Assembly: GCA_009777735.1 (NCBI GenBank) | Contig: WRLF01000009.1 | Coordinates: 1-64,000 of the forward strand | DNA from: Treponema sp. | GTDB taxonomy: Bacteria; Spirochaetota; Spirochaetia; Treponematales; Breznakiellaceae | Reading direction: 5' to 3' | DNA: 64,000 nucleotides | Shown: positions 16-56,061 of the stretch, piece by piece | How positions within the stretch are numbered: the first letter of the stretch is position 1 | Layout: the number at the start of each line of letters is the position of its first letter | Notes under the pieces: generated by a model | The model's database searches: none | Told to the model about the DNA's origin: nothing | The model's input: only the letters and a program-made list of their open reading frames with translations | Made by a program: the position numbers and the translations under genes

Positions 16-136
16 CAGCAATGTGTGCACCCATAAAACATGATAAGGCGGGTGTCGACGGCAAGCGTGCCGCGAAGCGGCGCGATTGGCCGCCGACGGG
101 CCCCGCATAAGTTATTTGACAGGGCACACATTGCTG
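16..136 (+). repeat. Dispersed structured repeat, copy 1
   Basis: This 121-bp intergenic element is bounded by a perfect 13-bp inverted repeat, CAGCAATGTGTGC (16-28) and GCACACATTGCTG (124-136). Inside are GCGGG/CCCGC, a GTCGACGGC/GCCGCCGAC stem with one mismatch, and a central CGTGCCGC-GAA-GCGGCGCG hairpin that needs one G-U pair. Related copies lie at 7238-7357, 38239-38354 and, inverted, 55926-56061. It sits downstream of the minus-strand chemoreceptor gene. It could be a MITE-like element or a structured RNA; no open frame in it looks real. Confidence 0.85.
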
Positions 137-138
137 TA

Positions 139-236
139 TTAACCGGTTGTCCATTGATCACCACATAGAGATCCTGTTTCCCTTTGTGTTCATGCACTGC
201 GGATGGGGCACAGCCGCCTGTTGTTACATCTTTGTA
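139..236 (-). other. Open stretch without start, possible gene remnant
   Basis: Between repeat copy 1 and the chemoreceptor stop codon, the minus strand has about 33 open codons beginning just after a TAG. They read like the tail of a protein (VVINGQPVNT at the end) and then run into the repeat. No start codon or ribosome binding site is visible. It may be a remnant truncated by the repeat, or chance. I do not recognise the family. Confidence 0.15.
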
Positions 237-259
237 CTATTTAGTACATTGACCAAAAA

Positions 260-2347
260 CTACTCCACCTTAAACCGTGAAACTTCCTTTATCAAAATAT
301 CAATGGCTTCACGATTATTACGGCTTATATCATTAACATTGTTTACCGCTAAATTAACACGTTCAGCCCCGGCAGCCATTTCATTCATGCCAGATGTGAT
401 TTCCTGGGTTGCCTTCTCCAAATTTTCGCTTTCCCGAATAACTTCCTTTGCCCCGTCAAGCATTTCATTGGAACCGCTTTTAACCTGGCGGGTAATATCG
501 TTTACATTGCCGACGCCCTGAAGTAATTGCTTGCTCCCAATGCCCTGTTCCTCCATAGAGTTACGGATATTTTCTTCCTGTTCAGCCACGATCCTGACAC
601 TTGAGTCAATGGCTTCAAATCTATTAAGCACATTTTCCGTGGACCTGGTTATCTTGTCGATAGAGTTTTTAATCTTTTTAAGTACATTGCCAATGGTCTT
701 GGACTGCTCACTTGAACTTTCTGCAAGCTTGCGTATCTCGGCAGCGACAACAGCAAAGCCCTTTCCCGACTCACCTGCATGGGCAGCTTCAATTGCGGCG
801 TTCATCGAAAGCAGGTTAGTCTGGCTGGAAATGTTTTCCATCACTGCATTGATTTCCAAAAGACCTTCCGATTCATGAGCTATTTCCTGTATGTCTTGCG
901 CCACTTCGGAAAGGCCGGTGCGGCCCACTTCGGATGCTTCTTTAAGGGTGTTTACATTACCAACATTGTTGACAAGCGTTACCGTAACGGACTGAATATT
1001 GGCTACCATTTGTTCAATGGCGCTCGATGCCTGGGATATATTTTCACTCTGATATTCAACATGACCGTTTAGCTTATTGATATTTGTCATCACCTGTTCC
1101 ATGGTTGCATGGGTCTCACTCACACTGGCGCTCTGGTTCATAACCCTGTTGTTGATGCTCTGGACATTGGCAGTGATCTCGTTCACCGCCGCTGCGGTTT
1201 CAGTCATGTTGATGGCAAGGTCATCGCCAACCTGAGACAGAGCTTTCGCCTCAGCTCTGATATTGACGATCATGTTTTTAATTTTTTCAATTGTCAGATT
1301 AAAGTTGCGTGCCAGATCGCCTATTTCATCTTTGGAAACAATGTCGATCATATTGGTAAAATCGCCCTTGGCAACATCTTCCAATGTAAGAGCCACACGG
1401 TGTACAGGACGGACGATCGACCTTCCGATAAACAGCGCTATGATTATACCAACGAAAAAACAGATTAATCCAATGAAAAGAACAAGAAAAAATGTGCTGC
1501 TCAACTCCGCTTGTGAATCGCTTTCTTCCATTGCAATAATAAGAACCCAGGGATAACCAGGAACTTCAGCATAAGCGCATTTATAGGATTTACCGTTTAA
1601 TTCATAAAAACCTTGACCGGTTCTTTGCCTTATTGCCAGAGCCGCCATATCTGCCATGGATTTCAGAGAAAGATCCGTCTGTGCCTCGCTTATCAGATTG
1701 AACTGATTAAGTACCCTGTCCTGATCAGGATAGGCTACAAAAGTCCCTTCGTTATTGATCATAAAAGCGTACCCGCTTGGGTAGCGGACTTTTATCCCGC
1801 TCACCAGATCAGAGAGCGCACTGCCGCCATCCTCCCTTGCAACCAACACGCCAACCACAGGCGCTCCCGGATTTTCGCTTGCATGGATGGGGGATGCGAA
1901 CATTAACACAGGTCTGTTGATAGCCCTGCTGATGAGTACATCCGAAATCGCTGCTCTTCCGCTGAAAGCCTGAATAACGTAATCACGGTCGCCAAGGCTT
2001 GCAGTGGAATTATCAGAAACATAACGGGCGATACCGTCCGGGAATACCACACCAAGTTCAAGAATTCCTAAACGCGGCACATCAGCGGTGAGGCTGGGTC
2101 TGGTAGTATTATCCCAGTCCATAGTTCGGGTCCTGGCCCGGTTTGCTATTTCCATGAGCTGGCTTAGGCGGCTCTCCAGTTTGGTTTTGATAATTTCGGC
2201 ATTCGCTTCAGCCTTGCTGCTGAGCTCCTCCAGGACAGAATTCCTAATCTTATTACCCATAAGAATTTGCATGGGGACAATAATACTCATTGTGGTTATT
2301 AATACAACAACCCCTATTAGAAGGGGTATTCTTATGCTCAATTTCAT
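260..2347 (-). CDS. Methyl-accepting chemotaxis protein, membrane type
   Basis: Transmembrane chemoreceptor of 695 residues. It has a TM helix at about 6-32, a large periplasmic sensor region of dCache type (about 35-280), a second TM helix (about 285-308), a HAMP domain (about 308-360) and a long cytoplasmic coiled-coil signalling domain. The conserved hairpin tip ([15 protein letters not shown] followed by FAVVAAE) lies near residues 505-540. This part binds CheW and CheA and controls flagellar switching. There is no C-terminal pentapeptide tether for CheR/CheB. It starts 21 bases after the hydrogenase-chemoreceptor fusion and is almost certainly cotranscribed with it, so the two may act in one receptor array. 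The ligand cannot be told from sequence. Confidence 0.95.
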
Positions 2348-2368
2348 GGGGCAACTCCTTTTATATGA

Positions 2369-4462
2369 TTATTCTGACATTTTTTCATCTGTTACCTCTG
2401 AAAGAGTATTCATATCATCAAGAAGGCTGCTTGACTTGGAAAGCAAATCAGAAAAACCTTCCTTTACTGCGGTGCTTTGGCTCTGTATGTTGTTTAACGC
2501 AGCAGTAATAGATGAACTTCTTTTGGACAATTCGCCCATTGTCGTTATCATTTCTGTCATGGTTTTGGCAAAATCAACAATTTCCTTTGACATATTATTT
2601 ATTACAAAACTGGTATCTCCGGATCTTTTAGATGTAACATCAATTCCTTTAATAATGTTTGACAGTGTTTGGGAAATATTTTGAGAATTCTGCCTTGTGT
2701 TTTCCGAGAGACGGCGGATTTCGTCTGCAACTACGGCAAAACCCTTGCCTGCCTCTCCGGCATGAGCGGCTTCTATTGCGGCGTTCATGGACAGTAAATT
2801 GGTGTTGGCTGCTATGCTGCTGATGATTTTTATTGCTGAGGCTATGCCTTCAATGGATTGGGAGATTTCCTCGACTGATAAAATGGTTTCTTTCATTGAT
2901 TGCTGGCCTTTGCCCGTTTCTTCGGTAAGTTCCTGTATGGTAGCCTGTTTAAGACGGGAAAGTTCCGATGTGCTTTGCAGATCATTTACAATTTCTTCTG
3001 TAATAACCGAAGATTCATTGATTGCGTTCATGAATGAATCAATGCGCTCGTTCTCTGATTTTATCGTACAATCAATCTCCCTGATAATACCTATGGCATG
3101 CTCAACATGTTTATGGAGTTGTTTGTTCAATTTTTCCATTTTTAATCTGTCCTGAGTGAGTAAGGAATGATTGAAATGGAGGCAGTTTTCCGGTTTATTT
3201 AATTTGTTGAATATTGCCTCTGCCATTGCCTCGCACGTTCCGTAACCGCAGGCAGTACAATTATATATATCTGCATTGGTAAACTTTTTCATGAGTGTAA
3301 ACACTTCGGATATTTCTGCTTTGTTGGGATGCCGTATGGTATTGTTCTCTGACAGATTGCGGTAACTGCGGTCATATATCCCTTTTTTCCAGTACTTATT
3401 GAGTATTTTGTGATATTTTCCGGATGCTTTTTTATTTCTATTGGTTTTATGAAAATTCTCCAGATAATCTATGCGCCTGCGAATTGGGTTTTCCAAAACT
3501 GCTATTGGAACTTTACTGTTTCCTGTACCGGGGCCTCCGTTACAGCCTTTTTCACAATTAAGACAGTCAACTAATGTTGCCAGCTTTAAATCGGTATTGT
3601 TTTTCAGCAATTCATCAAGGTCTGTCAAGTAGGGATAAATGCTGTGAAGCCCTTCGATTTTTCGTGTCTGCCGGCCTATGCCGGGTATAAAGCGTTCGGC
3701 GGTATCCAGTAATCCTCCGGGAGAAGAAAAACCCACCGCTCTTTCTGCAAGAATACCTGTGTATTCTACTTCCGGGAATGAAGCAAGATTGATATTATTT
3801 GCTTCCAGATGTTCTTTCACAGCTAGCATGGTAACATTATAATCACCCAGATTTGTTGCGTCAAATTCCCGTCTTTTGGCAGCGCATGGAGAAATGACCG
3901 CTGCTTTGTAATTTTTGTATTTGGGAAAATATTCATGAATCATTTTGATTGTGTGCAGCATGGGGCTGTGTGCCGGGGCAAGATAGGGCAGCAATTTTGG
4001 GCGGTAGATTTCTATATAGCTGACGATAGCAGGACACGGCTGGGCAATTAATGTACGGGGTTTTTTTTCTTTGATGTAGTTAAGATACGAAATAACGGTG
4101 AGTTCTGCACCGAAACTTACATCAAATATATCTTCTATCCCCAGAGACTTGAGATAGCCGTTAAAATTGAGGAATTTTTTCGGAAATACCGACGCAATAG
4201 CCGGAGCGACAACGGCTATCATTTTTGTCCCGTTTCTTAAATCTCCAAAGAATTGATCTGTGTCATCAATTATCCTGCGGGCATTATGAGAACAAGAAGT
4301 TATACAATTGCCGCATCCTATACACAAGTCATGGTTAATATCCAGTTTCTCACCTGATCCGTCCATACAGTATTTAACAGGGCAGACTGCAATACAGGCA
4401 TAACAATTTATACATTTATCAAGATCAATTTTAATGACTGGTGTAAGACGTGTGACTCCCAT
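2369..4462 (-). CDS. Soluble [FeFe]-hydrogenase-like H2 sensor fused to chemoreceptor signalling domain
   Basis: A 697-residue protein without TM helices. Order: two [4Fe-4S] ferredoxin motifs (C17-C27 and C47-C57); an [FeFe]-hydrogenase H-cluster domain (about 75-345); an extra Fe-S domain with C402, C405, C410 and C427; a linker helix; and a methyl-accepting signalling domain (about 470-690) with the hairpin tip [16 protein letters not shown]-cluster ligands match C143 (QPCPA), C193 (SPCAAK), C303 and C307 (CLNCEKGC). The proton-relay cysteine of catalytic enzymes is replaced by P142, as in sensory hydrogenases. Likely role: reads H2 or redox state in the cytoplasm and signals to CheA. Start ATG has AAAGGGG 7 bases upstream. 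First gene of a two-gene operon. Fusions of this kind are, to my knowledge, reported in termite-gut treponemes; the function is inferred. Confidence 0.9.
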   Translation of the reverse strand: MGVTRLTPVIKIDLDKCINCYACIAVCPVKYCMDGSGEKLDINHDLCIGCGNCITSCSHNARRIIDDTDQFFGDLRNGTKMIAVVAPAIASVFPKKFLNFNGYLKSLGIEDIFDVSFGAELTVISYLNYIKEKKPRTLIAQPCPAIVSYIEIYRPKLLPYLAPAHSPMLHTIKMIHEYFPKYKNYKAAVISPCAAKRREFDATNLGDYNVTMLAVKEHLEANNINLASFPEVEYTGILAERAVGFSSPGGLLDTAERFIPGIGRQTRKIEGLHSIYPYLTDLDELLKNNTDLKLATLVDCLNCEKGCNGGPGTGNSKVPIAVLENPIRRRIDYLENFHKTNRNKKASGKYHKILNKYWKKGIYDRSYRNLSENNTIRHPNKAEISEVFTLMKKFTNADIYNCTACGYGTCEAMAEAIFNKLNKPENCLHFNHSLLTQDRLKMEKLNKQLHKHVEHAIGIIREIDCTIKSENERIDSFMNAINESSVITEEIVNDLQSTSELSRLKQATIQELTEETGKGQQSMKETILSVEEISQSIEGIASAIKIISSIAANTNLLSMNAAIEAAHAGEAGKGFAVVADEIRRLSENTRQNSQNISQTLSNIIKGIDVTSKRSGDTSFVINNMSKEIVDFAKTMTEMITTMGELSKRSSSITAALNNIQSQSTAVKEGFSDLLSKSSSLLDDMNTLSEVTDEKMSE

Positions 4463-4487
4463 TTTTTTCCCCTTTCATTTTATTAAT

Positions 4488-4516
4488 CTTGTAAATCTCC
4501 TTATGTTGATTTACAA
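4488..4516 (-). promoter_or_regulatory. Promoter of the H2-sensor operon covered by a perfect inverted repeat
   Basis: TTGTAAATC (4489-4497) and GATTTACAA (4508-4516) form a perfect 9-bp inverted repeat with a 10-base spacer. Read on the minus strand, its arms supply a -35 (TTGTAA, 4511-4516) and a -10 (TACAAG, 4488-4493) separated by 17 bases, about 20 bases upstream of the gene start. The position between a regulator and a divergent operon suggests an operator. Seen: the repeat and hexamers. Inferred: the function and the regulator. Confidence 0.5.
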
Positions 4517-4569
4517 TGAAACATAAAGTCCCGGTGGAGTATTTTGCTTAAATTATCGAGAATTATGAT

Positions 4570-7155: not shown

Positions 7156-7185
7156 AAGTGCGATTGGCCGTCGACGGGCCCCGCC
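7156..7185 (+). repeat. Half copy of the dispersed structured repeat
   Basis: The sequence matches the 3' half of the dispersed repeat (GTGCGATTGGCCGTCGACGG then GCCCCGC) just after the regulator stop codon. A linker of about 50 bases, alignable to the one at 38206-38238, connects it to full copy 2. The same half-plus-full arrangement at two loci suggests a longer ancestral unit. Confidence 0.65.
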
Positions 7186-7237
7186 CTCTTCCCCATCAGT
7201 AAAGCAAACCTCCATTTTACGGCTCACTGAATAACGG

Positions 7238-7357
7238 CAGCAATGTGTGCCACTAAAAACATGATAAGGCGGGTGTCGACGGCAAGCGTGCCGCGAAGCG
7301 GTGCGATTGGCCGTCGACGGGCCCCGCATAAGTTACTTAACATGGCACACATTGCTG
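7238..7357 (+). repeat. Dispersed structured repeat, copy 2
   Basis: 120 bp with the perfect 13-bp terminal inverted repeat CAGCAATGTGTGC/GCACACATTGCTG. The inner stem GTCGACGGC/GCCGTCGAC is perfect here, and the central hairpin CGTGCCGC-GAA-GCGGTGCG closes with two G-U pairs. It lies between two convergent genes (regulator and lptG). Confidence 0.9.
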
Positions 7358-7395
7358 GTTTTACCAGTTGTTCGGCCAATGGGGGTTTGAGCAGC

Positions 7396-21456: not shown

Positions 21457-23727
21457 TCAAGACAGATAATGATTGATCAAACAACCATCCAGCAGAATCT
21501 GCCGTTCGCTTGCAGTTAGATCACCGAGGGTGACGGTTATCGTAAAAAGCTTTTCATCAAGCACGTAAGCCGTGATGGTTTTTGCCTCGTCACGAACAGC
21601 CTGCGCGATACCGGGAAAGAAAACATAACTGCCAAGACTGAATACCGTTTCATCGGTAATGAGGAAAGGCAGAATCCCCCAGTTAATAAGATTTGAACGA
21701 TACCGTTTAGTGGCGTATTCAAGGGCAAAGTTTGCCGAGCCTCCAAGCACCCTCTGGCAGGAAGCGGCTTGCTCACGGGCAGAACCGTCACCGGGCTTGC
21801 GTGCATAAATAGCGCTGCCAATCCCAACAACATCAAGTGTAATCTCCTCACATCCAGGTATGCCTTGAATTTGCCTGAAAATACCTGATATCTCTTCACT
21901 TTTACCTTTTACCTTTTCACTTGCAAGCGCCTGCACCGCCTTCGCCCGGTCCACATAACCGGGATCCTTGCGACTGAGAGTAAATTCCGCCAGCCTGATG
22001 GGGTTTGAGCGGTACGACGAAGTTTCGCCTGAGGGGATAAGTTCATCGGTGGTAGTAACCGGGTCGGTGATAAAGCTGACGATTTTAACCAGCAGATGTT
22101 CCGGCAGGGCGGGCATTGCCGGCCAGTCCCTGATGTTGGGGCCAAAAACCAGTTCGGTTTCCGGTAAAGGTCTGCCAGTACCGTCATACACCCGCTTATC
22201 GTAAATGCCCCGGTCAAAAAAGAACCGGTACTTGCCAAATGGTATATCCAATTCAGTGGCGGCGGTGATCCTGCCGCCGTTAATGGCAGTTGCGGCAATG
22301 GAACGGGCGTCCATCAGCGCAACTGAAGCTATCTGCCCTTCACCGGGTTTTGATCCTTCCCGGTTTGGGAAGTTGCGGGTGGCATGGCGCAGTGAAAGTT
22401 CTCCGTTTGCCGGGGTGTCCCCCGCACCAAAGCAGGGGCCGCAAAATGCTTCACGCATTAAAACTCCGGCGCTCATAAAAATTTCGGCGGCGCCGTTTTT
22501 TACCAGTTCAAGATATGTCGGCTGGCTTTCCGGGTATACGCTCATGGTAAAGTTGCCGTTGCCGACTGATGCTTCCTTCATAATATCCGCTGCTGCCATA
22601 ATATTATCAAAAATGCCGCCTGCACAGCCGACTATGACCGCTTGCTCCGCCCAAATGCCGCCGTTACGATACTTGGCTTTCAGGTTGAGCTGCAGGTTCG
22701 GGTTACCCAGAGCCTTTAACCCATCTTCTTCGGTTTGTGCCAAAATATCCCGTGCGTTGTGCTGCAATTCCTTAATCGTATATACATTACTTGGATGGAA
22801 TGGCAATGCAATACACGGCTCAATCCGGGAAAGGTCAACATGGACAAAGCCGTCATAATATGCGGCGGCGGCAGGTTTAAGTTCGCGGTACTCCCCTGCC
22901 CTGCCCCGGACAGCCAGATAGTCCTTGACGGCGGAATCTGTTTGCCAGATTGACGACCAGCAGGTGGTCTCGGTGGTCATTACATCAATGCCGTTGCGGA
23001 AATCCACCGGCAGCCCGGCAACACCGTCCCCGATAAATTCCATCACTTTATTTTTCACATAACCGCTTTTGAACACCGCTGCGATAAGCGTTAGCGCAAC
23101 ATCGTGGGGGCCAACACCTGCTGCCGGTTCTCCGGTGAGGTACACTGCTACAACTTCCGGGCGGGTAATGTCATACGTCCTGCCGACAAGCTGTTTTGCC
23201 AGTTCGCCGCCGCCCTCCCCTACTGCCATTGTACCCAGCGCTCCGTAACGGGTATGGCTGTCAGAGCCCAGTATCATTTTACCGCAGCCGGCCATCATCT
23301 CGCGGTTATATGTGTGTATAACGGCAAGGTGGGGAGGCACATAAATGCCGCCGTACTTTTTCGCCGCGCTGAGAGCAAACACATGGTCATCCTGGTTGAT
23401 CGTTCCGCCGACTGCACAAAGGCTGTTATGGCAATTCGTCAGCACATACGGCACAGGGAATTTGTCCATGCCGCTTGCTCGCGCCGTTTGAATAATGCCC
23501 ACATAGGTAATATCATGTGAAGCGAGCGAATCAAATTTCAACCGCAGGTTATGTTCATCGCCGGTGTTATGTGAGGCTAAAATCCCGTAAGTAATTGTCC
23601 CTTTCTTTGCCTCATTTTTTGAGATGTCAACCCCCGCCTGCCTGAGTTTTGCTTCAGCATCGGTATCGTCTGGTATAATCAACGACCCGTTAATCAAAAA
23701 TGCCCCGGTATCAAACACTTGTATCAC
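21457..23727 (-). CDS. Aconitase-family hydratase (YbhJ-like)
   Basis: 756 residues resembling the YbhJ branch of the aconitase superfamily more than citric-cycle aconitase, judged from memory of the segment YVLTNCHNSLCAVGGTIN. The [4Fe-4S] ligands are probably the cysteine in IVGCAGG and the pair in CGPC, and the swivel domain is at the C terminus. The substrate of this branch is not established. A heptanucleotide repeat is translated in the linker before the swivel domain (about 603-611, SEKVKGKSEE). The start ATG is at 23727; the repeats at 23734-23754 lie just upstream. It stands alone on the minus strand. Confidence 0.85.
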   Translation of the reverse strand: MIQVFDTGAFLINGSLIIPDDTDAEAKLRQAGVDISKNEAKKGTITYGILASHNTGDEHNLRLKFDSLASHDITYVGIIQTARASGMDKFPVPYVLTNCHNSLCAVGGTINQDDHVFALSAAKKYGGIYVPPHLAVIHTYNREMMAGCGKMILGSDSHTRYGALGTMAVGEGGGELAKQLVGRTYDITRPEVVAVYLTGEPAAGVGPHDVALTLIAAVFKSGYVKNKVMEFIGDGVAGLPVDFRNGIDVMTTETTCWSSIWQTDSAVKDYLAVRGRAGEYRELKPAAAAYYDGFVHVDLSRIEPCIALPFHPSNVYTIKELQHNARDILAQTEEDGLKALGNPNLQLNLKAKYRNGGIWAEQAVIVGCAGGIFDNIMAAADIMKEASVGNGNFTMSVYPESQPTYLELVKNGAAEIFMSAGVLMREAFCGPCFGAGDTPANGELSLRHATRNFPNREGSKPGEGQIASVALMDARSIAATAINGGRITAATELDIPFGKYRFFFDRGIYDKRVYDGTGRPLPETELVFGPNIRDWPAMPALPEHLLVKIVSFITDPVTTTDELIPSGETSSYRSNPIRLAEFTLSRKDPGYVDRAKAVQALASEKVKGKSEEISGIFRQIQGIPGCEEITLDVVGIGSAIYARKPGDGSAREQAASCQRVLGGSANFALEYATKRYRSNLINWGILPFLITDETVFSLGSYVFFPGIAQAVRDEAKTITAYVLDEKLFTITVTLGDLTASERQILLDGCLINHYLS
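21894..21921 (-). repeat. Heptanucleotide tandem repeat inside the aconitase-like gene
   Basis: Units CTTCACT, TTTACCT, TTTACCT, TTTCACT on the plus strand, read in frame on the minus strand as a Lys/Glu/Ser segment in an interdomain linker. Confidence 0.75.
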
Positions 23728-24365: not shown

Positions 24366-25763
24366 TCAGGGATCAAACGCTGTTTCGATGGGAACTCTGA
24401 CCAGGTTGATGTAATGGCCGTTGGGTAACACCCTTCGTTCGCCATTGACTATACGTTCCTGATGCGGGTAACGGTTTCTGACCGCACTGATTGATGTTTC
24501 TTCGGCGCTTTCAAAAACGGTTACCTGAAATATGCCCTGTTCGTTAAAGTAGGGGATGAGTGCCAAAACGTGGAAATACTGGCGTATGCGCGGACCGCGG
24601 GGGTCTGCCGGACCTTGTTCATTGTTAATTGCGGCAAGATACAACCTGCCCGGCTCATCAATAGCCAGAGTGTACAACAGGGGCAGAATTCCCTCAATAC
24701 CATATCCGGCATTTTCCAGAAAACCGGGATACGTATGGAGCGATGTTAAATTTCTTCCCCGGAGAAACATCTGGGAAAAAGGCTGACTGCGTACCTCAAT
24801 TTCTGTGAGTCTGCCGAATGCAGGTGAGCGCAGCCTTATCCAGGCCTGCGATGCGAGGTTTCTAATCCAGTCAAGGCCGAAGAAGGGGGCACGCTGGTCT
24901 TCCCATATAGAAGTAAATAATGAACCCCGGTCTCCAAAAGGCGCTTTTAATTGATCTATGGCAAGCCGTTCTCCGGTGACTGGCCTGAGCATACCGTCAA
25001 TCAGCCACTTGATAAAACCGGAACAATTAAGCCCTGGTTGTCCCTGTTGTTCAAGGCCGGTTTCAATGTAGACATAACGACCCGTGCTGTCGATAGCTCC
25101 GTCATCAGTAAAACGGAGCTGCGGCAGCCGTTCCCGTACTTGTGCTACAAACTGACGCTGGCTGCGGTAGTCGTCCGGATTTGGATCAAAATACCTGCGC
25201 GGGAATGCATCACCGGCAAAGTTTAAAACTTCGTTCATAGGCAAGGTGTAGAGTCTTTCAAATGATACCGGGAGGGGCAGGGAACGCACTATGTAGGCAT
25301 CGTACAAAACCACGTCCATTTGACACCTTTCTGCAGTAAAAGGCCTGAATTGCACATACACATAAGGATCGCTGCGGAGAAAAACGCGTATACGGGTTGC
25401 AGCTCCTGTGTCTCTGCGGCGGGTAAGTATCCATGAACCCTGCGCCCAGCCGGGGAAACGCCCGGTATTGGTACCGGGAACAGCCGAGCTGACGAAACCG
25501 GCAGTTAATTCCCTGGCAAAAATAACCATAAATTCATCCTGGGCTGCTTCAACACGCAGATGGACTCTGCCGCCGCCGTCCAGGTTAAACATGGCAGGGG
25601 AGTTCGCCAGAACTCTGCCGGGATCTGCCGTAAGCCAGGTATCCCTGGCCCTGGCCCTCAATGCGGAATCATCGACGATTCCTCTGACTGGTTTGTCCTG
25701 ACCATAAGACAGAGAAAGTGCAAAACCCAGACAAACAGCCATGAAAATTATTTTTTTAGCCAT
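24366..25763 (-). CDS. Exported protein, possible NlpC/P60-like cysteine hydrolase
   Basis: About 465 residues with a signal peptide (MAKKIIFMAVCLGFALSLSYG). A second start at 25775 is possible, but its AGG lies too close. Near residue 250 the segment NCSGFIKWLIDG resembles the active-site cysteine region of NlpC/P60 peptidoglycan hydrolases (usually DCSG). Histidines follow near 346 (HTYPGF) and 401 (HVLALI). The spacing is wider than usual, so the family is only a suggestion. It would act in the periplasm. It is divergent from htrA, with 75 bases between. Confidence 0.6.
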   Translation of the reverse strand: MAKKIIFMAVCLGFALSLSYGQDKPVRGIVDDSALRARARDTWLTADPGRVLANSPAMFNLDGGGRVHLRVEAAQDEFMVIFARELTAGFVSSAVPGTNTGRFPGWAQGSWILTRRRDTGAATRIRVFLRSDPYVYVQFRPFTAERCQMDVVLYDAYIVRSLPLPVSFERLYTLPMNEVLNFAGDAFPRRYFDPNPDDYRSQRQFVAQVRERLPQLRFTDDGAIDSTGRYVYIETGLEQQGQPGLNCSGFIKWLIDGMLRPVTGERLAIDQLKAPFGDRGSLFTSIWEDQRAPFFGLDWIRNLASQAWIRLRSPAFGRLTEIEVRSQPFSQMFLRGRNLTSLHTYPGFLENAGYGIEGILPLLYTLAIDEPGRLYLAAINNEQGPADPRGPRIRQYFHVLALIPYFNEQGIFQVTVFESAEETSISAVRNRYPHQERIVNGERRVLPNGHYINLVRVPIETAFDP

Positions 25764-25803
25764 AAAAAGACGCATACCTGCTTTTATTATCGACTTTTTT
25801 GTG

Positions 25804-25809
25804 TATAAT
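25804..25809 (+). promoter_or_regulatory. -10 element of the htrA promoter
   Basis: A perfect TATAAT lies 29 bases before the htrA ATG; the -35 region is T-rich but weak. GGAGGAAAG precedes the start codon. Confidence 0.45.
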
Positions 25810-25838
25810 ACATAGTAGGTAACGGAGGAAAGTATACT

Positions 25839-27128
25839 ATGAAACTTTACAGCCGGGGACAGGTAATTCTATTTTCGATTCTGGGCGGAGCGCTTACAGC
25901 TCTCATGGTAATGATCGTGCCAAAAGTGATGAATGTGCTGCCGGAAATGTCCGGAAGCACGGTAAGGCAGGAAACTGTCAGCGAGCCGCAATCGGATCAA
26001 TCGATTGATTTTGAGACGGTCATTGACGGATCCTTCGGTATCGAAACGCCGGAACTCTCGCATCTTCACGGGGGAGGCGTGCCTCTTACCGGGCACATTG
26101 TTCAATCAGCTGCCCAGTTCACTGATGGAGAACGGGAAAATATTACGATCTACGAGCGGCTCAATGCGGCAGTGGTAAACATCACCACCGAGACCATGGC
26201 ATTCAACTGGTTCCTTGAGCCTGTTCCCCAGGAAGGCAGTTCAGGATCAGGTTCAATTATTGATTCCCGCGGATATGTATTAACCAATAACCATGTTATC
26301 CGTAATGCCCATAAAGTTTTTATCAACCTTGCAGACGGCAGTCAATTTGAGGGAACTGTTATAGGAACCGATCCTGAAAACGACCTCGCCGTTGTTAAAT
26401 TTGATCCTCCGCGAGGAGTAGAATTGCGGGTTATTCCATACGGTGATTCCAGCGATTTGAGAGTAGGACAAAAAGTACTTGCAATAGGAAACCCATTTGC
26501 CCTTGAACGGACTCTTACCGTGGGCATTGTTTCCGGTCTGGGCCGGCCCATACAGATTTCCCGTCAGCATATCGTACGCGACATGATTCAAACCGATGCT
26601 TCCATAAACCCCGGCAATTCCGGCGGTCCTCTCCTTGATACCCAGGGACAGATGATTGGGATCAACACCATGATCTACTCTACTTCCGGCGGTTCTGTGG
26701 GAGTAGGTTTTGCTGTACCGGTAAACACCGCAAAGCGTGTCGTGAACGAGATTATCCAGTACGGCAGGGTGAGGCGCGGGTGGATTGACGCATCATTGGT
26801 GCAGCTTTTTCCCAACCTTGTGCGTTATGCCAATCTTCCGGTTAATGCCGGTATGCTGGTATCCCGCACACAGCGGGGCGGCCTTGCGGAAAGAGCGGGA
26901 CTTCGGCAGGGAAGTGAACCGGTGCAATCGGGACGCAGCACCATTTACCTTGGAGGCGATATCATCACTGCAATTGACGGTGTAAGGACAAATACCCTGT
27001 CCGATCTTTATTCTGCGCTGGAAAACAGCAAACCCGGCGATAGGGTGCGCCTTGAAATAATCCGCGGTGAAACTCCCATGACGATTGAAGTAACGCTTGC
27101 CAACCGGGACGAAGTATTAAACCGGTAG
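25839..27128 (+). CDS. HtrA/DegP-type serine protease
   Basis: A 429-residue periplasmic, membrane-anchored quality-control protease. N-terminal anchor at about 8-28, trypsin-like domain with catalytic H152 (LTNNHVI), D182 (NDLAVV) and S261 (NPGNSGGPLL), and one PDZ domain (about 320-425), the DegS/HtrA layout with a single PDZ. It degrades misfolded exported proteins or triggers stress signalling. hydF begins one base after its stop, so they are cotranscribed, although no functional link is known. Confidence 0.95.
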   Translation: MKLYSRGQVILFSILGGALTALMVMIVPKVMNVLPEMSGSTVRQETVSEPQSDQSIDFETVIDGSFGIETPELSHLHGGGVPLTGHIVQSAAQFTDGERENITIYERLNAAVVNITTETMAFNWFLEPVPQEGSSGSGSIIDSRGYVLTNNHVIRNAHKVFINLADGSQFEGTVIGTDPENDLAVVKFDPPRGVELRVIPYGDSSDLRVGQKVLAIGNPFALERTLTVGIVSGLGRPIQISRQHIVRDMIQTDASINPGNSGGPLLDTQGQMIGINTMIYSTSGGSVGVGFAVPVNTAKRVVNEIIQYGRVRRGWIDASLVQLFPNLVRYANLPVNAGMLVSRTQRGGLAERAGLRQGSEPVQSGRSTIYLGGDIITAIDGVRTNTLSDLYSALENSKPGDRVRLEIIRGETPMTIEVTLANRDEVLNR

Positions 27129-30881: not shown

Positions 30882-32678
30882 ATGAAAAAAATAACATTGG
30901 GTATATCCTGCCTGACTGTGATGCTTGTATTATTCACAAAGTGTTATTGGGGAACAACTGATATAAGCGGTGCGCCAAACCGGGCTATAGCATGGAAACC
31001 ACTAAGACTGGAAGCTGAAGTATCGTCAAACTCTTTTTTGATAACACCTAACATAATATGGTCAATTAAAAATGCCGGAACCACCCAGGCCAGAATTGTC
31101 AATAATGAAATCCTGTTCGCAACCGCACCTGGAACGCTTGTTGTCAGAGCGAGTATTGAAAATACAGCTAACATAAAGGATAATTTTACAAAGGATTTTA
31201 CAATAACAGTTCATCCTGCCCCCGAAGAGATACATGCTTTGGGCACATTGCTGATTTCCCATAATGAAAATACCGCTGAAAATCCGATTTTATTAAATGC
31301 AAGCCTCAATCTGGAAGTTCACTGGGAAAACCTTCGGGATATGTTAATTGTCGCAAGCCGTTATGTATATCTCAATCTTACAGAAAGCACCGGAACAGCA
31401 ATACCTCATCTTCCCGGTTTTGCTGACAGACATTTTTATAACTATAATGTATTGTCAATAATTCTGCCTGACAGCATTACCGGTATTGGAAGTTATGCTT
31501 TTTCTCAATATGAGAGGCTTAAAAGCATAAACATGGGGAATAATATTGCCGAAATCGGAAATTCGGCTTTTTACCACTGCAGGGAAATTACCGAAATTAT
31601 CATACCTGACAGCGTTATCAAGATAGGAGATTCTGCTTTTAACGGATGCACCGGCCTTACCAGTGTGATCATCGGGAACAATGTTGACACAATCGGCGAT
31701 TATGCCTTTAACGGGTGCAGTAATCTTGGCAGCATAATCATACCTGACAGCGTCACAAGCATTGGTAATTCTGCTTTCAGCGGATGCAGCGGTCTTACCA
31801 GTGTGAGCATTGGGAACAATGTTGCCGTTATCGGAAATTCTGCTTTCAGCGGATGCGAAAATATACCCGGCATCACTATACCGGACAGCGTCACAAGCAT
31901 TGGACATTCGGTTTTTAACGGCTGCAACAGTCTTGCGGCAATACATGCCGCTCCCGGCAACACTATGTTTAGTTCAACAGACGGTGTATTGTACAATAAA
32001 ACAGCCACATCCTTAATCCGTTATCCGGCCGGAAAAACAACGGAAATATACAGTATACAAGACGGTGTTACCAGTATAGAAAATGAAGCTTTTAGGAACT
32101 GCAGCAGCTTAATCAGTGTTATTATTCCTGACAGTGTTATCACTATAGGAAATTTTGCTTTTAGCGGATGCACCGCGATGACAAGTATTACCATTCCTGA
32201 TAATGTTGTAAATGTCGGAGATTCTGCTTTTAGCGGATGCATCGGGCTTATCAGCATTTCTCTGCCTGACAATGTTGTAAATATCGGGGCTTATGCTTTT
32301 TATAATTGCCGTAAACTGAGCAGCATCAATTTAGGGAATTCCATTACCACAATCAGAACTAACACATTCGGCGGATGCACCGATCTTACCGGTATAACAT
32401 TTCCTGAAAGTGTTACCACTATTGAGAATTCTGCATTCATCAGTTGCAGCAATTTTACCGGCATTTTTATAGGGAAAAATATTACATTTATTGGGGAGCA
32501 TGCTTTTTGGGGAAATATACAACTTACCAGCGTTACATTTGAGGGCGCTATCCCACAAACAGGTTTACCTGACTCTGCTTTCCCCGGAGACTTACGGTTA
32601 AAATATTTTGCAAACAGCGGCGGCCCAGGTACTTATAACAGGTCCGGCGAATCAGACAGATGGAATAAAATATATTGA
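30882..32678 (+). CDS. BspA/TpLRR-type leucine-rich repeat lipoprotein
   Basis: 598 residues. The signal segment ends near LVLFTKC, a loose spirochaete-style lipobox. An Ig-like N-terminal part (about 30-110) is followed by about 14 LRR_5 repeats of 22-23 residues (pattern DSVTSIGNSAFSGCSGLTSV) and a short C-terminal cap. Proteins of this family in Treponema denticola and Tannerella mediate attachment to matrix proteins or other cells, so a surface or periplasmic binding role is likely. The consensus repetition is also visible in the DNA. GGGAG precedes the ATG. Confidence 0.88.
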   Translation: MKKITLGISCLTVMLVLFTKCYWGTTDISGAPNRAIAWKPLRLEAEVSSNSFLITPNIIWSIKNAGTTQARIVNNEILFATAPGTLVVRASIENTANIKDNFTKDFTITVHPAPEEIHALGTLLISHNENTAENPILLNASLNLEVHWENLRDMLIVASRYVYLNLTESTGTAIPHLPGFADRHFYNYNVLSIILPDSITGIGSYAFSQYERLKSINMGNNIAEIGNSAFYHCREITEIIIPDSVIKIGDSAFNGCTGLTSVIIGNNVDTIGDYAFNGCSNLGSIIIPDSVTSIGNSAFSGCSGLTSVSIGNNVAVIGNSAFSGCENIPGITIPDSVTSIGHSVFNGCNSLAAIHAAPGNTMFSSTDGVLYNKTATSLIRYPAGKTTEIYSIQDGVTSIENEAFRNCSSLISVIIPDSVITIGNFAFSGCTAMTSITIPDNVVNVGDSAFSGCIGLISISLPDNVVNIGAYAFYNCRKLSSINLGNSITTIRTNTFGGCTDLTGITFPESVTTIENSAFISCSNFTGIFIGKNITFIGEHAFWGNIQLTSVTFEGAIPQTGLPDSAFPGDLRLKYFANSGGPGTYNRSGESDRWNKIY

Positions 32679-37726: not shown

Positions 37727-38137
37727 ATGAAGAACACAATTAAACTTTTTGGTATTATCGCTTTGGTGGCGGTAATCGGACTTTCAATGACCGCCTGTCC
37801 TACAGACGGCAATGGTGGCAATGGCGGCAGTATAACCATAACAATAAACGGACTAACCGCAAACACAAGATACTATGTATCTCCAAATCATGTATCCCAA
37901 TCAGGTTCAGTGACTTGGCAAAAAGATGAAGACATATCAACCATGTCTAACAGTGCAGGGACTCTCAGTATTTCTTTCACAATCAAACGTCTTAAGCAGA
38001 ATGGTTTTACCGGAAATTGTCAAATTAGATACTCTGATAACGAAATAATGGCAGATTGGGTAAGATCAATAAACACTTATAACATGGATACGCCAACGAC
38101 CCATACGCTCAATGCCGCTACAGATTTTGAAATTTAG
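37727..38137 (+). CDS. Small lipoprotein of unknown function
   Basis: 136 residues with a signal peptide ending GLSMTAC (cysteine about 24). A Gly/Asn-rich linker follows, then a beta-rich domain of about 100 residues (ITITINGLTANTRYYVSP) resembling a small Ig or fibronectin-type fold. The gene is followed immediately by a half copy and then a full copy of the dispersed repeat. No known function. Confidence 0.78.
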   Translation: MKNTIKLFGIIALVAVIGLSMTACPTDGNGGNGGSITITINGLTANTRYYVSPNHVSQSGSVTWQKDEDISTMSNSAGTLSISFTIKRLKQNGFTGNCQIRYSDNEIMADWVRSINTYNMDTPTTHTLNAATDFEI

Positions 38138-38210
38138 CGTGGGTGTCAGCGGCAAACATGCCGCAAAGCGGTACGCTTAGTCGCCTCCAACTAGCCCCCC
38201 ACAGAGAAGC
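38138..38210 (+). repeat. Half or degenerate copy of the dispersed structured repeat
   Basis: It aligns with the inner part of the repeat (GTGGGTGTCAGCGGC then GCCGCAAAGCGGTACGCTTA) but diverges at its 3' end. A linker alignable to 7198-7237 leads to full copy 3. Confidence 0.7.
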
Positions 38211-38238
38211 AACCCCATATACGGCATTACAGAAAAAG

Positions 38239-38354
38239 CAGCAATGTATGTTCATAACATGATAAGGCGGGTGTCGGCGACAAGCGTGCTGCAAAGCAGT
38301 GCGCTTGGTCGCCGACGGGCCCCGCATAAGTTTATTAGTGGGCACACATTGCTG
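38239..38354 (+). repeat. Dispersed structured repeat, copy 3
   Basis: 116 bp. Terminal arms CAGCAATGTATG and CACACATTGCTG (one mismatch). The inner stem GTCGGCGAC/GTCGCCGAC is perfect and differs from copy 2 on both sides; the central hairpin CGTGCTGC-AAA-GCAGTGCG carries a compensated C-G to T-A change. It ends 39 bases before the recJ start. Confidence 0.9.
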
Positions 38355-46778: not shown

Positions 46779-48785
46779 ATGAAAAAAATTGCATTAGTTA
46801 TTGTGATTATTGCGGCATTTGGACTGGTTCTGGCAGGCTGTGAAGACTCGCCTATTCCATCCAGCAGCCAGTTGGGAGAAGTCGAAAATAATCCCGGTCA
46901 TCCCTGTACCAACGGCTTCCCTTGCGAAGATTGTGATTGTCCGGATAAAACCATTTGCATGGAAGAATGCAGTTGTAAAAACGAATGCAGCACTTGCGGT
47001 CCAAACTGCATCTGTGATGTGTGTACCTGCACAAATGGCGGTGACTGCCTCGAATGCGGCGGCGGCGGTGCAGACTGCAACTGCGGCCCTAACTGCGTCT
47101 GTGATGTGTGTACCTGCGCCAATGACGGCGACTGCCTCAAATGCGGCGGCGGCGGTGCAGACTGCAACTGCGGCCCTAACTGCGTCTGTGATGTATGCAC
47201 CTGTGCCAATGACGGCGACTGCCTCAAATGCGGCGGCGGCGGTGCAAACTGCAACTGCGGTCCAAACTGCGTCTGTGATGTGTGCTCTTGTGCCAATGGC
47301 GGCGACTGCCTGCCATGCACCAGGTGCGGTCCAGACTGCGGCTGCGGCGCCAACTGTACGTGTCCTAATACCGGCGATTGCTTGCCTTGTACCAAGTGCG
47401 GACCAAACTGCGGCTGCGGAGCTAATTGTACCTGCTCCGCCGGCGGCGATTGCCTGCCATGCACAAAATGCGGACAAAACTGCGGCTGCGGCGCAAATTG
47501 TACATGCCCCAACAGCGGTAATTGTACAGGAAACTGCAACAACGGCTGTCAAGGCACAAACTGCACATGCCCAACCCACGAAAATTGCCCGACCGGATGC
47601 GAAGGTAACCCCTGTACAGAGTGCAATCCTGTAGTAGTTAATCCGCCTACCGGAACATTTGGATTTGGTGTAACCAGAAATACATTGATAGATACCGGCC
47701 TGGCATTAAAAGACGGTGAAGTGTGGGTTTGGGGGTTCAGAGGCTCCGGACAGCAAGGTAACGGAAGTAATGTTGTTCTGCCGCACGAACCTCCTGCTAA
47801 GGTTCATTCCCTGAGTAATAATATTGTTACAGTAACCGGCAGTGCGTACACTTTGGTTGCATTAGATAAAAACGGCAATGCCTGGGGTTGGGGACAGAAC
47901 CTCTATGGAGCAGCCGGTGTGGGACAGAGCTCAGGCATAATTAGTACACCGCGCCGGGTTAATTTACCTGTTACAGTGGATCAAATTGCTGCAGGTGAAT
48001 ACTTCTTTATTGCAAGAGGCACAGATGGCAATGTATATACCTGGGGAGAAAATCTCTACGGTCAACTTGGTGTCCGCACAACATCTAATCTGCCTTCAGC
48101 CAATCCTGTCAGGGTGAACCTGCCCAATAATGAGACAGCCCGCCTTATTGGCGCCGCTTACGAAGGCGCATTTGTCGTAACGAATCAAGGCAATGTATAT
48201 GCCTGGGGCGATAATGAATCAAGCGGACTGGGGCTTGCGGCAAACGTAATAAGTCCAAATGCAATTTACGGTGTCCAGCAAATACATCGTACCCCGCAGC
48301 TTATCAATAACCTTAAACAATATGCAAACCAAATTACCTATATTGCCGGCGGCAATGGCTGGGGACAGGCGCTGCTTAATAACGGCACCGTAATCGGCTG
48401 GGGGCTGCGCGCATCTCTTGGTCAGGGAACAACCACTGTAATCGGCACTAACCACCATACAAACGGCGATGTGATTACGGTAACAACCAATATCGCTCAA
48501 ATGCACTCGCGGTATGTTGGTACGATTGCCATTACCAACGATAATAAGGTATTAACATGGGGGCAAACCGGCGCCAGTGCATTCCCGACAATTTACGGTG
48601 CAAGTGTAACAGAGCGTACATCGGCTAATGGTGTTATTGTAGATATTGGCGGCGGAAAAGAACATGTTTATTACAGAACTCAAGACGGCCGTGTTTGGGG
48701 GGCAGGTTACGGCGCAGCGAATAAATTATTATTAACCAGCATACTAAACCGGAGCTGGCCCGGTGTCCAGGTTGGCCTGGAATAA
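46779..48785 (+). CDS. Lipoprotein with 67-cysteine repeat domain and RCC1-type propeller
   Basis: 668 residues. Signal peptide with lipobox LVLAGC (C21). Residues about 40-283 hold 67 cysteines in tandem repeats: 29-residue units (CNCGPNCVCDVCTC motif, three near-identical copies) then 24-residue units (CGPNCGCGANCTC motif, three copies). No cysteine occurs after about residue 283. The rest (about 290-668) is an RCC1/BNR-like propeller (VWVWGFRGSGQQGNGS, NVYTWGENLYGQLGV). Such cysteine density suggests metal binding or a disulfide-braced stalk. The protein is exported, single gene, with a strong promoter and terminator. No known function. Confidence 0.85.
   Translation: MKKIALVIVIIAAFGLVLAGCEDSPIPSSSQLGEVENNPGHPCTNGFPCEDCDCPDKTICMEECSCKNECSTCGPNCICDVCTCTNGGDCLECGGGGADCNCGPNCVCDVCTCANDGDCLKCGGGGADCNCGPNCVCDVCTCANDGDCLKCGGGGANCNCGPNCVCDVCSCANGGDCLPCTRCGPDCGCGANCTCPNTGDCLPCTKCGPNCGCGANCTCSAGGDCLPCTKCGQNCGCGANCTCPNSGNCTGNCNNGCQGTNCTCPTHENCPTGCEGNPCTECNPVVVNPPTGTFGFGVTRNTLIDTGLALKDGEVWVWGFRGSGQQGNGSNVVLPHEPPAKVHSLSNNIVTVTGSAYTLVALDKNGNAWGWGQNLYGAAGVGQSSGIISTPRRVNLPVTVDQIAAGEYFFIARGTDGNVYTWGENLYGQLGVRTTSNLPSANPVRVNLPNNETARLIGAAYEGAFVVTNQGNVYAWGDNESSGLGLAANVISPNAIYGVQQIHRTPQLINNLKQYANQITYIAGGNGWGQALLNNGTVIGWGLRASLGQGTTTVIGTNHHTNGDVITVTTNIAQMHSRYVGTIAITNDNKVLTWGQTGASAFPTIYGASVTERTSANGVIVDIGGGKEHVYYRTQDGRVWGAGYGAANKLLLTSILNRSWPGVQVGLE
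47065..47320 (+). repeat. In-gene 87-bp tandem repeats encoding Cys-rich units
   Basis: Three units of 87 bp (29 codons) are nearly identical at DNA level, showing recent expansion. They are followed by three 72-bp units (24 codons) to about 47530. Confidence 0.8.
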
Positions 48786-48786
48786 G

Positions 48787-49948: not shown

Positions 49949-49970
49949 ATTATATCACATATGTGCCGGT
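49949..49970 (-). promoter_or_regulatory. gpsA -10 element and palindrome
   Basis: On the minus strand TATAAT (49949-49954) is followed after 7 bases by ATG. The palindrome CACATATGTG sits a few bases upstream. The -35 is weak. Confidence 0.4.
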
Positions 49971-50008
49971 GTTATTAGTGACTCCTGTCACCTGTGCGCT
50001 GCTTTACT

Positions 50009-50530: not shown

Positions 50531-50622
50531 ATTTCAATAGTCGTATATTAATATTTCATTCGTAATACCTAAAATATGAAAAAAATCATCGCATTATACA
50601 CCTTAAATCAAAGGCAGAGAGC

Positions 50623-52545: not shown

Positions 52546-52567
52546 GATGGCCTCCTAAAGTTGTTTT

Positions 52568-52849
52568 TTGATGATTGTTTACGGTTATGGTAGCAAATTA
52601 TATGGCTGGGGGCAAGGGGACTTAACCAGGTGGGATAAATCTATTGCACGTCTTATCATTGCATGGATTGAGAAACATTTAATTAATACACAAAACCCGC
52701 GTGTACATGGAAAGGGTTTATCGGCCAATCTTGCAGGTTCATGGCGTTACCGGATAGGCGGCTATCGTATTATTGCAAACATTGACGATCAAACTAAAAC
52801 GATAGTGATTTTGGATATCGACCACAGAAGCAGGATATATCAAAAATAA
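52568..52849 (+). CDS. RelE/YoeB-type toxin without visible antitoxin
   Basis: 93 residues. The C-terminal two thirds fit the RelE/Txe family (DKSIARLIIAWIEKHL, GSWRYRIGGYRIIANI, DHRSRIY). RelE toxins cleave mRNA in the ribosome. The N terminus (VYGYGSKLYGWGQGD) does not look like the usual beta strand and is encoded by G-rich sequence resembling the 7-base repeats. No antitoxin gene lies upstream (htpG is 22 bases away, divergent) or downstream. It may be inactive or an orphan. Confidence 0.7.
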   Translation: MMIVYGYGSKLYGWGQGDLTRWDKSIARLIIAWIEKHLINTQNPRVHGKGLSANLAGSWRYRIGGYRIIANIDDQTKTIVILDIDHRSRIYQK

Positions 52850-52856
52850 CAGGGCT

Positions 52857-52877
52857 AGCCCCCAGCCCCCAGCCCCT
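52857..52877. repeat. Heptanucleotide repeat (AGCCCCC)
   Basis: AGCCCCC, AGCCCCC, AGCCCCT, directly after the toxin gene and just before the EamA-family gene. Confidence 0.75.
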
Positions 52878-52890
52878 ATATACTAATCCC

Positions 52891-53304
52891 ATGTGGTTTG
52901 TATTTGCATTATTATCAGCGGTCTTTGCCGCTTTGACGTCAATCCTGGCAAAAATTGGCTTGGGGAATATTAATTCCAATCTGGCAGTGGCAATAAGGAC
53001 AGTAGTAGTGGTGGTTATGGCCTGGTCGATTGTATTTTTTACCGGCAAGCACCATGAAATAGGAACTATTGGACAAAAAAACGTGCTTTTTCTCGTTTTA
53101 TCGGGAATTGCAACAGGGCTTTCATGGCTGTGCTACTACCGGGCCTTACAGTTGGGGGAAGCATCAAAAGTTATACCCGTAGATAAATTCAGCCTGGTTT
53201 TGGGAATGGCGCTGGCTTTTATTGTCCTCAAAGAAACGGTAACCATAAAAGCCATTATCGGCGGCGCCTTAATCACCCTCGGAACATTTGTGCTGATATT
53301 TTAA
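52891..53304 (+). CDS. Half-size EamA/DMT-family transporter
   Basis: 137 residues with 4-5 TM helices and one EamA unit (ALSRYRALQLGEASKV-like YYRALQLGEASKVIPVDKF). Most DMT proteins have two such units; half-size ones work as dimers, like small multidrug transporters. The substrate is unknown. The gene lies between the orphan toxin and a large unknown gene and has no clear ribosome binding site. Confidence 0.82.
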   Translation: MWFVFALLSAVFAALTSILAKIGLGNINSNLAVAIRTVVVVVMAWSIVFFTGKHHEIGTIGQKNVLFLVLSGIATGLSWLCYYRALQLGEASKVIPVDKFSLVLGMALAFIVLKETVTIKAIIGGALITLGTFVLIF

Positions 53305-53351
53305 GCCGCCGGGTATTTTACTTTTCTGCAAAAATACATTAAAATGGAGGT

Positions 53352-55298: not shown

Positions 55299-55457
55299 AA
55301 AAAAATCGGCGATTCATTCAAGCATTTTCCAATATTACGCCATATATAAGGTATCATAGACAGAATTGTGCCGGCCTTGAGTTCGTTGAATTCAGGCTGC
55401 ACACTGTCCATGACCGGCGGCTGTATGCGGCCGGACTAAGCCACATGGAGGCAAATC

Positions 55458-55919
55458 ATGAATAACAATCTTAACAGCATTCTCATTGAGGGAAACTTGG
55501 TGAGGGAACCCCTGTTCCGCTCAACACCAAAAGGAACACCGGTCTGTACTTTCAGCCTGGCCTCCAACCGTTTCTTCAGGCAAGATTCAGGATTGGAAAA
55601 GGAAGTTTCGTTCTTTGAGGTGGAAACCTGGGCAAAATTGGCAGAATCCTGTAACAAACAGGGGAAAAAAGGCCGAGGCGTAAGGGTTGTAGGCCGTTTG
55701 AAGCAGGACAGATGGACAGGAAATGACGGAAAGCCCCGTTCGCGTATTACCATTGTCGCAGAGCATGTAGAATTCCGTCCCGAATTTAAAAAGGATGAAC
55801 AATCTGTATCCGCAGCATTGGTAGCGGAACAAGCACGGGAATATGACAATGATCTCCAGCCTGAAGAAAACGTTCATTCTCCGGTTATGGAAGATGTCTA
55901 TGCACAGGTAGTGTTTTAA
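55458..55919 (+). CDS. ssb: Single-stranded DNA-binding protein
   Basis: 153 residues: OB fold about 1-110 (NSILIEGNLVREPLFRSTPKG, FFEVETWAKLAE, VVGRLKQDRW). The C terminus ends EDVYAQVVF and not the acidic DDDIPF-type tip that recruits partner proteins, which is unusual. It is not next to rpsF/rpsR as in many bacteria. GGAGG precedes the ATG; the leader contains a GC-rich hairpin (CCGGCGGC/GCGGCCGG near 55425). Confidence 0.9.
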   Translation: MNNNLNSILIEGNLVREPLFRSTPKGTPVCTFSLASNRFFRQDSGLEKEVSFFEVETWAKLAESCNKQGKKGRGVRVVGRLKQDRWTGNDGKPRSRITIVAEHVEFRPEFKKDEQSVSAALVAEQAREYDNDLQPEENVHSPVMEDVYAQVVF

Positions 55920-55925
55920 GCAAAA

Positions 55926-56061
55926 CAGAAATGTATGTCCTTTGGTATGCTTATGCGGGGCCTGTCAGTAGCCAAACGCCTGCCTTCAGCAGGCGAGCAC
56001 CGCTTGCGCGGCACGCTTGTTACTGACACCCACCTAACCATGCTTTTAGCATACATTTCTG
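55926..56061 (-). repeat. Dispersed structured repeat, copy 4 (inverted, with extra hairpin)
   Basis: 136 bp on the minus strand. Terminal arms CAGAAATGTATG/CATACATTTCTG are perfect and differ from other copies on both sides. The inner stem GTCAGTA/TACTGAC is a different but still perfect stem. The central hairpin CGTGCCGC-GCAA-GCGGTGC is kept, followed by an extra hairpin GCCTGC-TGAA-GGCAGGC. The 3' part GGCCCCGCATAAG is conserved. It sits between convergent ssb and the U32 peptidase. Confidence 0.85.

Follow-up and report, generated by a model that had tools for sequence, protein, structure and literature searches.

A diverged family of mobile palindromes under strand-specific structural constraint in Treponema and its relatives

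The first 64,000 nucleotides of contig WRLF01000009.1 from a Treponema sp. genome (NCBI GenBank assembly GCA_009777735.1; hereafter the window) contain a dispersed repeat that can fold into nested hairpins and whose stem bases differ between copies on both sides at once. Is such a repeat held in shape by selection on a folded RNA, or is it a palindromic mobile element, the two possibilities left side by side when the sequence was read on its own? We found that the repeat is a real, diverged family of mobile palindromes under strand-specific structural constraint, while the selected fold may be that of single-stranded DNA or of RNA.

Nested build and covariation of the stems

We characterized the repeat with two covariance models: R1, built from 22 copies, and R2, a short model of the core based on an alignment of 24 rows (A4) that took the place of a poor first alignment (A3). 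The copies and their parts within the window, whose source is referred to below as the own genome (G000), are as follows.

16..136, + strand: copy 1, S2 arms CAGCAATG..CATTGCTG and core hairpin; core model match at 46-108
7158..7184, + strand: remaining right half of a truncated copy, immediately adjacent to the left end of copy 2 in head-to-tail order
7186..7199, + strand: left-end motif CTCTTCCCCATCAG, common to part of the own-genome copies
7205..7389, + strand: copy 2 with its outer arms S1 (7205-7216 / 7378-7389), as delimited from the fold
7238..7357, + strand: copy 2, S2 arms and core hairpin; core model match at 7267-7329
38110..38229, + strand: decayed copy adjoining copy 3; R1 E 0.0047, R2 match at 38137-38202 with 18.8 bits
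38239..38354, + strand: copy 3, with the CTGC/GCAG tip; core model match at 38265-38327
55926..56061, - strand: copy 4, between convergent genes; core model match at 55953-56035

The four copies that the sequence-only reading had placed at 16, 7238, 38239 and 55926 are all present and align over their full length, and each stem change that it had listed between them was recovered (GTCGACGGC/GCCGTCGAC, GTCGGCGAC/GTCGCCGAC, GTCAGTA/TACTGAC and the CTGC/GCAG tip). The alignment and the fold of copy 2 also bear out the terminal inverted repeats, nested stem and central hairpin described there. From the outside inward, copy 2 consists of the S1 arms, the S2 arms (GGCAGCAATGTGTGCC/GGCACACATTGCTGG), a lower core stem with a 3-nt bulge on its 3′ side and a tip hairpin. 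The outer inverted repeat reaches beyond the cores (about 7205-7389 in copy 2), giving a unit of ~200 bp; together with its flanks, copy 2 folds into one rod (-95.8 kcal/mol, z = -7.4), a result that none of 200 shuffled sequences equalled. At the apex of these inverted-repeat tiers lies the conserved core hairpin, GGGTG-N-C ... G-N-C-(A/G)-GGN-CCC, again with the 3-nt bulge on the 3′ side. Individual copies vary on this plan: the contig start cuts away the left outer arm of copy 1, copy 3 lies 39 nt upstream of a recJ-like open reading frame (ORF), and the tip of copy 4 has an additional GCCTGC..GCAGGC hairpin. Elsewhere, one copy in the relative G001 (L150) has a much longer, unrelated tip in its core hairpin. 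With terminal inverted repeats and no coding capacity, the repeat is built as a miniature inverted-repeat transposable element (MITE) is. No named family had been known for it, and this still holds for Rfam, which gave no match at the gathering score over the window; at E <= 1, five matches arose in five loci, none of them on a copy.

The covariation analysis, set beforehand as the check on the proposal of a selected fold or palindromic mobile element, was significant. Among the relatives, R2 yielded 102 matches (99 distinct rows) with 96.0% of cells paired, and both-side changes occurred in 17 of the 23 core pairs, amounting to 428 such cells as compared to a shuffled mean of 118; none of 500 shuffles reached any of the five covariation measures. 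The own genome, with 38 distinct rows, had 97.8% of cells paired and both-side changes in 10 of 23 pairs. Here none of 500 shuffles reached four of the measures, whereas 114 reached the fifth, the number of further pair types.

The wobble pairs are distributed unevenly between the strands. After leaving out majority-wobble pairs and, among the relatives, four wrong-strand duplicates, we counted 58 G.T against 14 A.C in the relatives (95 distinct rows) and 33 against 3 in the own genome; in the tip stem, tandem U.G/G.U pairs are often kept. This imbalance would not arise from a cause that acts alike on both strands. Consequently, with wobble pairs mostly on one strand, the data indicate that the fold of one strand is selected.

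Spread of the family and of its core

Searching the own genome (2.69 Mb, 39 contigs) with copy 2 by BLAST gave 62 matches, while R1 gave 83 strand-wise matches at E <= 1, which we tallied as 48 distinct places, 46 of them at E <= 0.01. These copies are diverged, not the identical recent duplicates that would have spoken against the proposal, and R1 found the family in 18 of 39 genomes (the own genome, 14 of 23 from the same genus and 3 from the same order). A wider R2 search matched 11 of 392 genomes of the phylum, all of the same order, although absence elsewhere is weak evidence, as 13 first-look candidates were scored per genome. In other spirochaete genera the core is recognizable, while the outer arms differ in sequence and are still inverted repeats (for example in G225 and G243). 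Nearly all hosts are draft genomes, and several own-genome contigs begin or end inside a copy. At one G225 locus (L215, C1:1195000-1214900), tandemly repeated genes of ~1000 aa are accompanied by a repeated intergenic block in which the hairpin occurs at three places, plus a fourth, weaker match.

The core extends beyond the spirochaetes. The form A-GGGGTG-N-C ... G-N-CA-GGA-CCCC, with its 3-nt bulge, occurs as multi-copy repeats in metagenome-assembled genomes (MAGs) of Gammaproteobacteria, Deltaproteobacteria, Bacillota and Omnitrophica; the matches listed by the pattern scan include MAGs named Gammaproteobacteria, Deltaproteobacteria, Bacillota/Clostridia, Saccharibacteria and Omnitrophica. 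All 15 chosen hosts again contained the pattern (G415, 5; G416, 26; G417, 11; G418, 5; G420, 7; G421, 2; G425, 3; G426, 2; the spirochaete G427, 5; the others, 1 to 3 each), as compared to a single match in one of the 15 for the reversed pattern. The matches in G428 and G429 are probably due to chance.

As the pattern itself had selected these hosts, only features that it did not specify are informative. Across 62 copies from 12 hosts, the N-N position holds G.A 48 times and the swapped A.G 9 times (against 3 of 41 viral pattern matches), and both arrangements are present within each of G415, G416 and G420. CCCC is followed by G in 60 of 62 copies (17 of 41 viral matches), and GGGG is preceded by A in all 62 (5 of 41), the latter being partly forced because the scan pattern required GA. 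Judged by these sequence features, the cross-phylum cores appear to be one motif, likely through common descent. A phage or plasmid origin was considered and rejected: no phage or plasmid matched the one copy from the genus that was compared (L066), and the 47 viral-contig pattern matches look fortuitous, with R2 scores of at most 21.7 bits and with the N-N pair and its neighbours scattered.

Some of these cores lie in coding sequence. In G415, four of five copies are located within long ORFs, on the sense strand and in one phase, reading RG(G/D)..QDPE; the fifth is not. By Pfam, the four host ORFs encode a class I tRNA synthetase with a valyl arm, a polyprenyl synthetase, a family-28 glycosyltransferase and a phenylalanyl-tRNA synthetase beta chain. 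Two Saccharibacteria have single copies in an exonuclease and an alanyl-tRNA synthetase, with the same strand and phase. A meaning for this constant phase is suggestive only, and for several in-frame copies other phases are open too. Among 27 loci inspected, few open frames cross a copy outside G415 and the Saccharibacteria, or else the DNA is GC-rich and open in several frames.

Mobility, candidate enzymes and competing explanations

We compared gene neighbourhoods between relatives by scanning them with R2. No copy was present at the recJ loci of 12 other genomes of the genus or at 15 U32-peptidase loci of 13 such genomes, some of these loci being short or cut; beyond the own genome, only two G027 loci of these kinds had copies. 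In the gap that holds copy 4, the copy is absent from G009, G005 and G008, and G001 has a different, decayed arm pair. Copies were also found inside one another. In four places, an inner TGTGTGTCCC.. unit stands where the tip of an outer copy would be, with both outer arms present at three loci (L004, L052, L024) and the outer left arm cut by the contig start at the fourth (L048); a further locus, L028, has the outer left arm only. A left-[whole]-right order indicates insertion, since simple tandem duplication does not yield it. Therefore, copies that occupy non-orthologous positions and that lie within the hairpin tips of other copies show that the repeat is mobile, and on this point the mobile half of the original proposal gained ground.

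The arms differ from copy to copy and match within each copy. Same-copy arms were more complementary than swapped ones in G416 (26 copies), G417 (10) and G420 (7), with 0 of 5000 permutations as good in each, and the same held for five spirochaete genomes (G000, G007, G008, G011 and G012; 0 to 8 of 2000). Runs of at least 6 arm pairs next to the core were present in 19 of 26, 4 of 10 and 5 of 7 copies of G416, G417 and G420, respectively, and three G416 copies (L525, L532, L534) have quite different arms around a near-identical core. In the own-genome stretches examined, 11 left-end motifs were found (a twelfth match was spurious), 6 of which abut a truncated upstream copy that ends at the tip or at GGGCC. 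At three own-genome loci (L212, L211 and L008, on C30, C17 and C6), left parts of the element are arrayed in tandem ahead of a single whole copy, with breaks at the tip or after GGGCCCCGC; copying from a fixed left end that halts at the hairpin and an effect of assembly would each produce such arrays. An autonomous form, in which a gene would separate the two halves, was considered and rejected, as the half-copies inspected seem to be deletion derivatives or arrays.

We consider it probable that the repeat is a non-autonomous mobile palindrome of the repetitive extragenic palindrome (REP) or MITE kind that is processed in single-stranded form and integrates at the tips of hairpins. A trans-acting enzyme would recognize the folded strand and transfer it to the tip of a second hairpin, and each insertion would thereby add a tier in the manner of a Russian doll; we infer the tip insertion because of the nesting and the copy-specific arms. 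If true, it accounts for the origin of nested bacterial palindromes and makes a clean prediction for each new copy. Several points weigh on the other side. The gene that moves the repeat is so far a candidate only, and target-site duplications were not established, the copy 4 gap in five relatives being too diverged to define an exact site. Matching arm runs are shorter than 6 pairs in 7 of 26 G416 copies and 6 of 10 G417 copies, and the arm test was not significant in G001 (310 of 2000 permutations). Copy-specific arms could also stem from compensatory evolution or hairpin-templated correction, and the mostly draft hosts are genomes in which repeats break and may be misassembled.

Which enzyme could act on the repeat? 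Our searches covered the Y1_Tnp and RVT_1 families. Y1_Tnp genes were detected in 17 of 39 relatives, with a single one in the own genome, and in 7 of 15 other hosts. The own Y1 gene (C1, ORF at about 25502-26002, 166 aa) matched Y1_Tnp as its sole family, and no helix-turn-helix domain was seen. Around it (L214, L088; C1:23163-28454), the motif GGGACACACA occurs at 23163, 25376, 25433 and 28445 on the + strand and at 26389 and 26747 on the - strand, inverted on the two sides of the gene. These six sites fall within 5.5 kb, whereas 864 kb of the own genome hold 16 near a core and 5 outside element copies, an enrichment counted after the flank match had emerged, post hoc, from a longest-inverted-repeat screen of 30 Y1 loci. 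The same GGGACACACA forms the outer end of the arms in the subfamily whose units occur nested. On this sequence evidence, the own Y1 gene is a candidate partner of one subfamily, and the leading one.

A more exact version of our favoured explanation, which we put forward tentatively as a possibility short of an even chance, is mobilization by a RAYT/TIRYT-group transposase of the Y1 (HUH) type that would cleave the top strand in its folded form, with GGGGWSAS as terminal motif. In two published studies, terminal inverted repeats beside RAYT-like genes share GGGG[AT][CG]A[CG] (PMC3733652; PMC6006769), a consensus matched by GGGGACAC at 25433. The core hairpin itself lies near a Y1 gene in G027 (L091), but near only this one of the 30 spirochaete Y1 loci, of which all were covered once and 29 a second time, and no Y1 gene was detected in the copy-bearing G008 (94% complete) and G013 (97%), nor in G417, G420 and G425. 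Within the core, only GGGGTGAC variants fit GGGGWSAS, the majority being GGGGTGGC or GGGGTGTC, and the arms of other subfamilies are unrelated. The transposase with matching ends that the sequence-only reading had suggested seeking was thus met in part: one subfamily's arm recurs inverted around the gene, but it faces inward there and outward in the repeat, and so the repeat is not a simple deletion derivative. The downstream site at 26389, the sole one inspected, also falls inside an rnhA-like ORF. Near other Y1 genes, we observed six GGGGWSAS motifs at ~29-bp spacing upstream of a gene in G027 (L107, 1248-1392) and an exact 18-bp inverted repeat flanking one in G009 (L106, 1383 and 1954), which look like TIRtron-type arrays. 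Copying as a retro-element by an RVT_1 enzyme, for which each copy-bearing host should have the gene, was not borne out: reverse transcriptase genes were detected in the copy-bearing G006, G009, G012, G020 and G026, but not in G000, G007, G008, G013, G027 or G032.

The covariation, the tandem U.G/G.U pairs of the tip stem and the one-sided wobble would also fit a functional structured RNA, such as an mRNA 3′-end stabilizer, an attenuator or a small RNA, that was spread by duplication and whose fold is under selection at the RNA level. We noted the orientation of 107 copies to their neighbouring genes, from 131 entries less 24 that overlap a long ORF call, using greedy ORF calls from which ORFs < 600 nt overlapping a copy had been dropped beforehand. 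Within tandem gene pairs, 14 own-genome copies were co-directional and 5 anti, but the counts were 15 to 17 in the genus, 5 to 6 in the order and 34 to 28 when pooled (p = 0.53); the link is suggestive in the own genome and vanishes on pooling. The positions beside the two tested genes, recJ and the U32 peptidase, are not conserved, and there is the lack of an Rfam match. This explanation is unlikely, and of the RNA half of the original proposal what stood is the selected fold of one strand, not a tie to gene direction. Replication strand offered no further reference, as none of 44 pieces (40 20-kb pieces and four window quarters) showed a usable replicational GC skew.

Alternatively, the paired changes could arise mainly from hairpin-templated mutation correction, by intrastrand template switching, and not from selection. 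Arms that are perfectly complementary and yet differ between copies (over 30, 35 and 24 bp in G425) and half-hairpin arrays that break at the tip are consistent with such a process. Correction, however, predicts perfect Watson-Crick arms and an erased bulge, yet the bulge, the N-N mismatch and the one-sided G.T pairs are kept, which makes it quite improbable as the main cause. Copies at several contig ends and half-copies in tandem arrays could even suggest an artefact of assembly or binning, but the same core recurs in many genomes from different projects, including the single-contig G225 and G243, and for the family as a whole we regard an artefact as extremely improbable.

Apart from the repeat, the window holds a 697-aa ORF (2369-4462, - strand) with 4Fe-4S domains, an iron-only hydrogenase large-subunit C-terminal domain, an FeS domain and a chemotaxis (MCP) signalling domain, possibly a hydrogen or redox receptor. 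Tandem repeats occur within long ORFs at 46990-47524 (87/72-bp), 31554-32461 (69-bp) and 62406-63170 (units of about 130 bp).

Comparison with known systems

Bacterial MITEs of the BOX, RUP and Correia types are modular, foldable, non-coding mobile units, as is the repeat described here. They differ from it in that no insertion sequence with the same ends and no target duplication was established here, where Y1_Tnp and RVT_1 were the families searched. REPs (GTAG- and CGTC-tagged) and the BIME and REPIN arrangements resemble it as dispersed, strand-specific imperfect hairpins that are clustered and at times lie in genes, but they are single hairpins of 21-65 nt, as compared to nested tiers of about 116-200 nt. 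The foot of GTAG REPs was not seen by eye: the bases 5′ of the core stem are GA, GC or similar, with no GT(A/G)G. Nor do whole copies flank Y1 genes in the way that GTAG REPs flank their RAYT gene, given the single case in 30 spirochaete loci. REP-like palindromes are common; in sequence they are, to our knowledge, specific to the host and linked to its resident transposase. The cross-phylum core, with its bulge and side-swapping G.A/A.G pair, points to one conserved recognition event. More speculatively, and with real reservation, the repeats may belong to a gene-less superfamily of selfish hairpins whose hosts include at least Spirochaetota, Gammaproteobacteria, Deltaproteobacteria, Bacillota and Omnitrophica and which spreads by insertion at the tips of other hairpins, growing in nested tiers; a widespread enzyme, which in some hosts could be a HUH nuclease of the TIRYT type, would then recognize it by the purine-purine pair beside the GGA bulge.

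Our literature searches found no description of the core or of the nested build. Two further systems were compared by their descriptions. Rickettsia palindromic elements, as presented in part of PMC10969869, are in-frame palindromes in housekeeping ORFs, similar to the copies in G415 and the two Saccharibacteria, but the spirochaete copies are mostly intergenic and the core spans several phyla. The conserved stem-loop repeats of Borrelia plasmids, so far as an extract of PMC2674063 portrays them, are likewise intergenic spirochaete repeats with compensatory stem changes, but are plasmid-borne and partly linked to genes. TIRtrons and their TIRYT enzymes (Y1 subclass 2.1), in the sections of PMC3733652 and PMC6006769 that describe them, are moderately abundant palindromes with a GGGG-headed motif that form dimers and clusters, as here; the arm of one subfamily matches the repeats around the own Y1 gene, where GGGGWSAS fits. 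Unlike TIRtrons as characterized there, the whole hairpin lies near one of 30 Y1 loci, the arms face the other way, and the core is GGGGTG(T/G/A)C and has a distinct 3′ side, marked by the GG(A/C) bulge.

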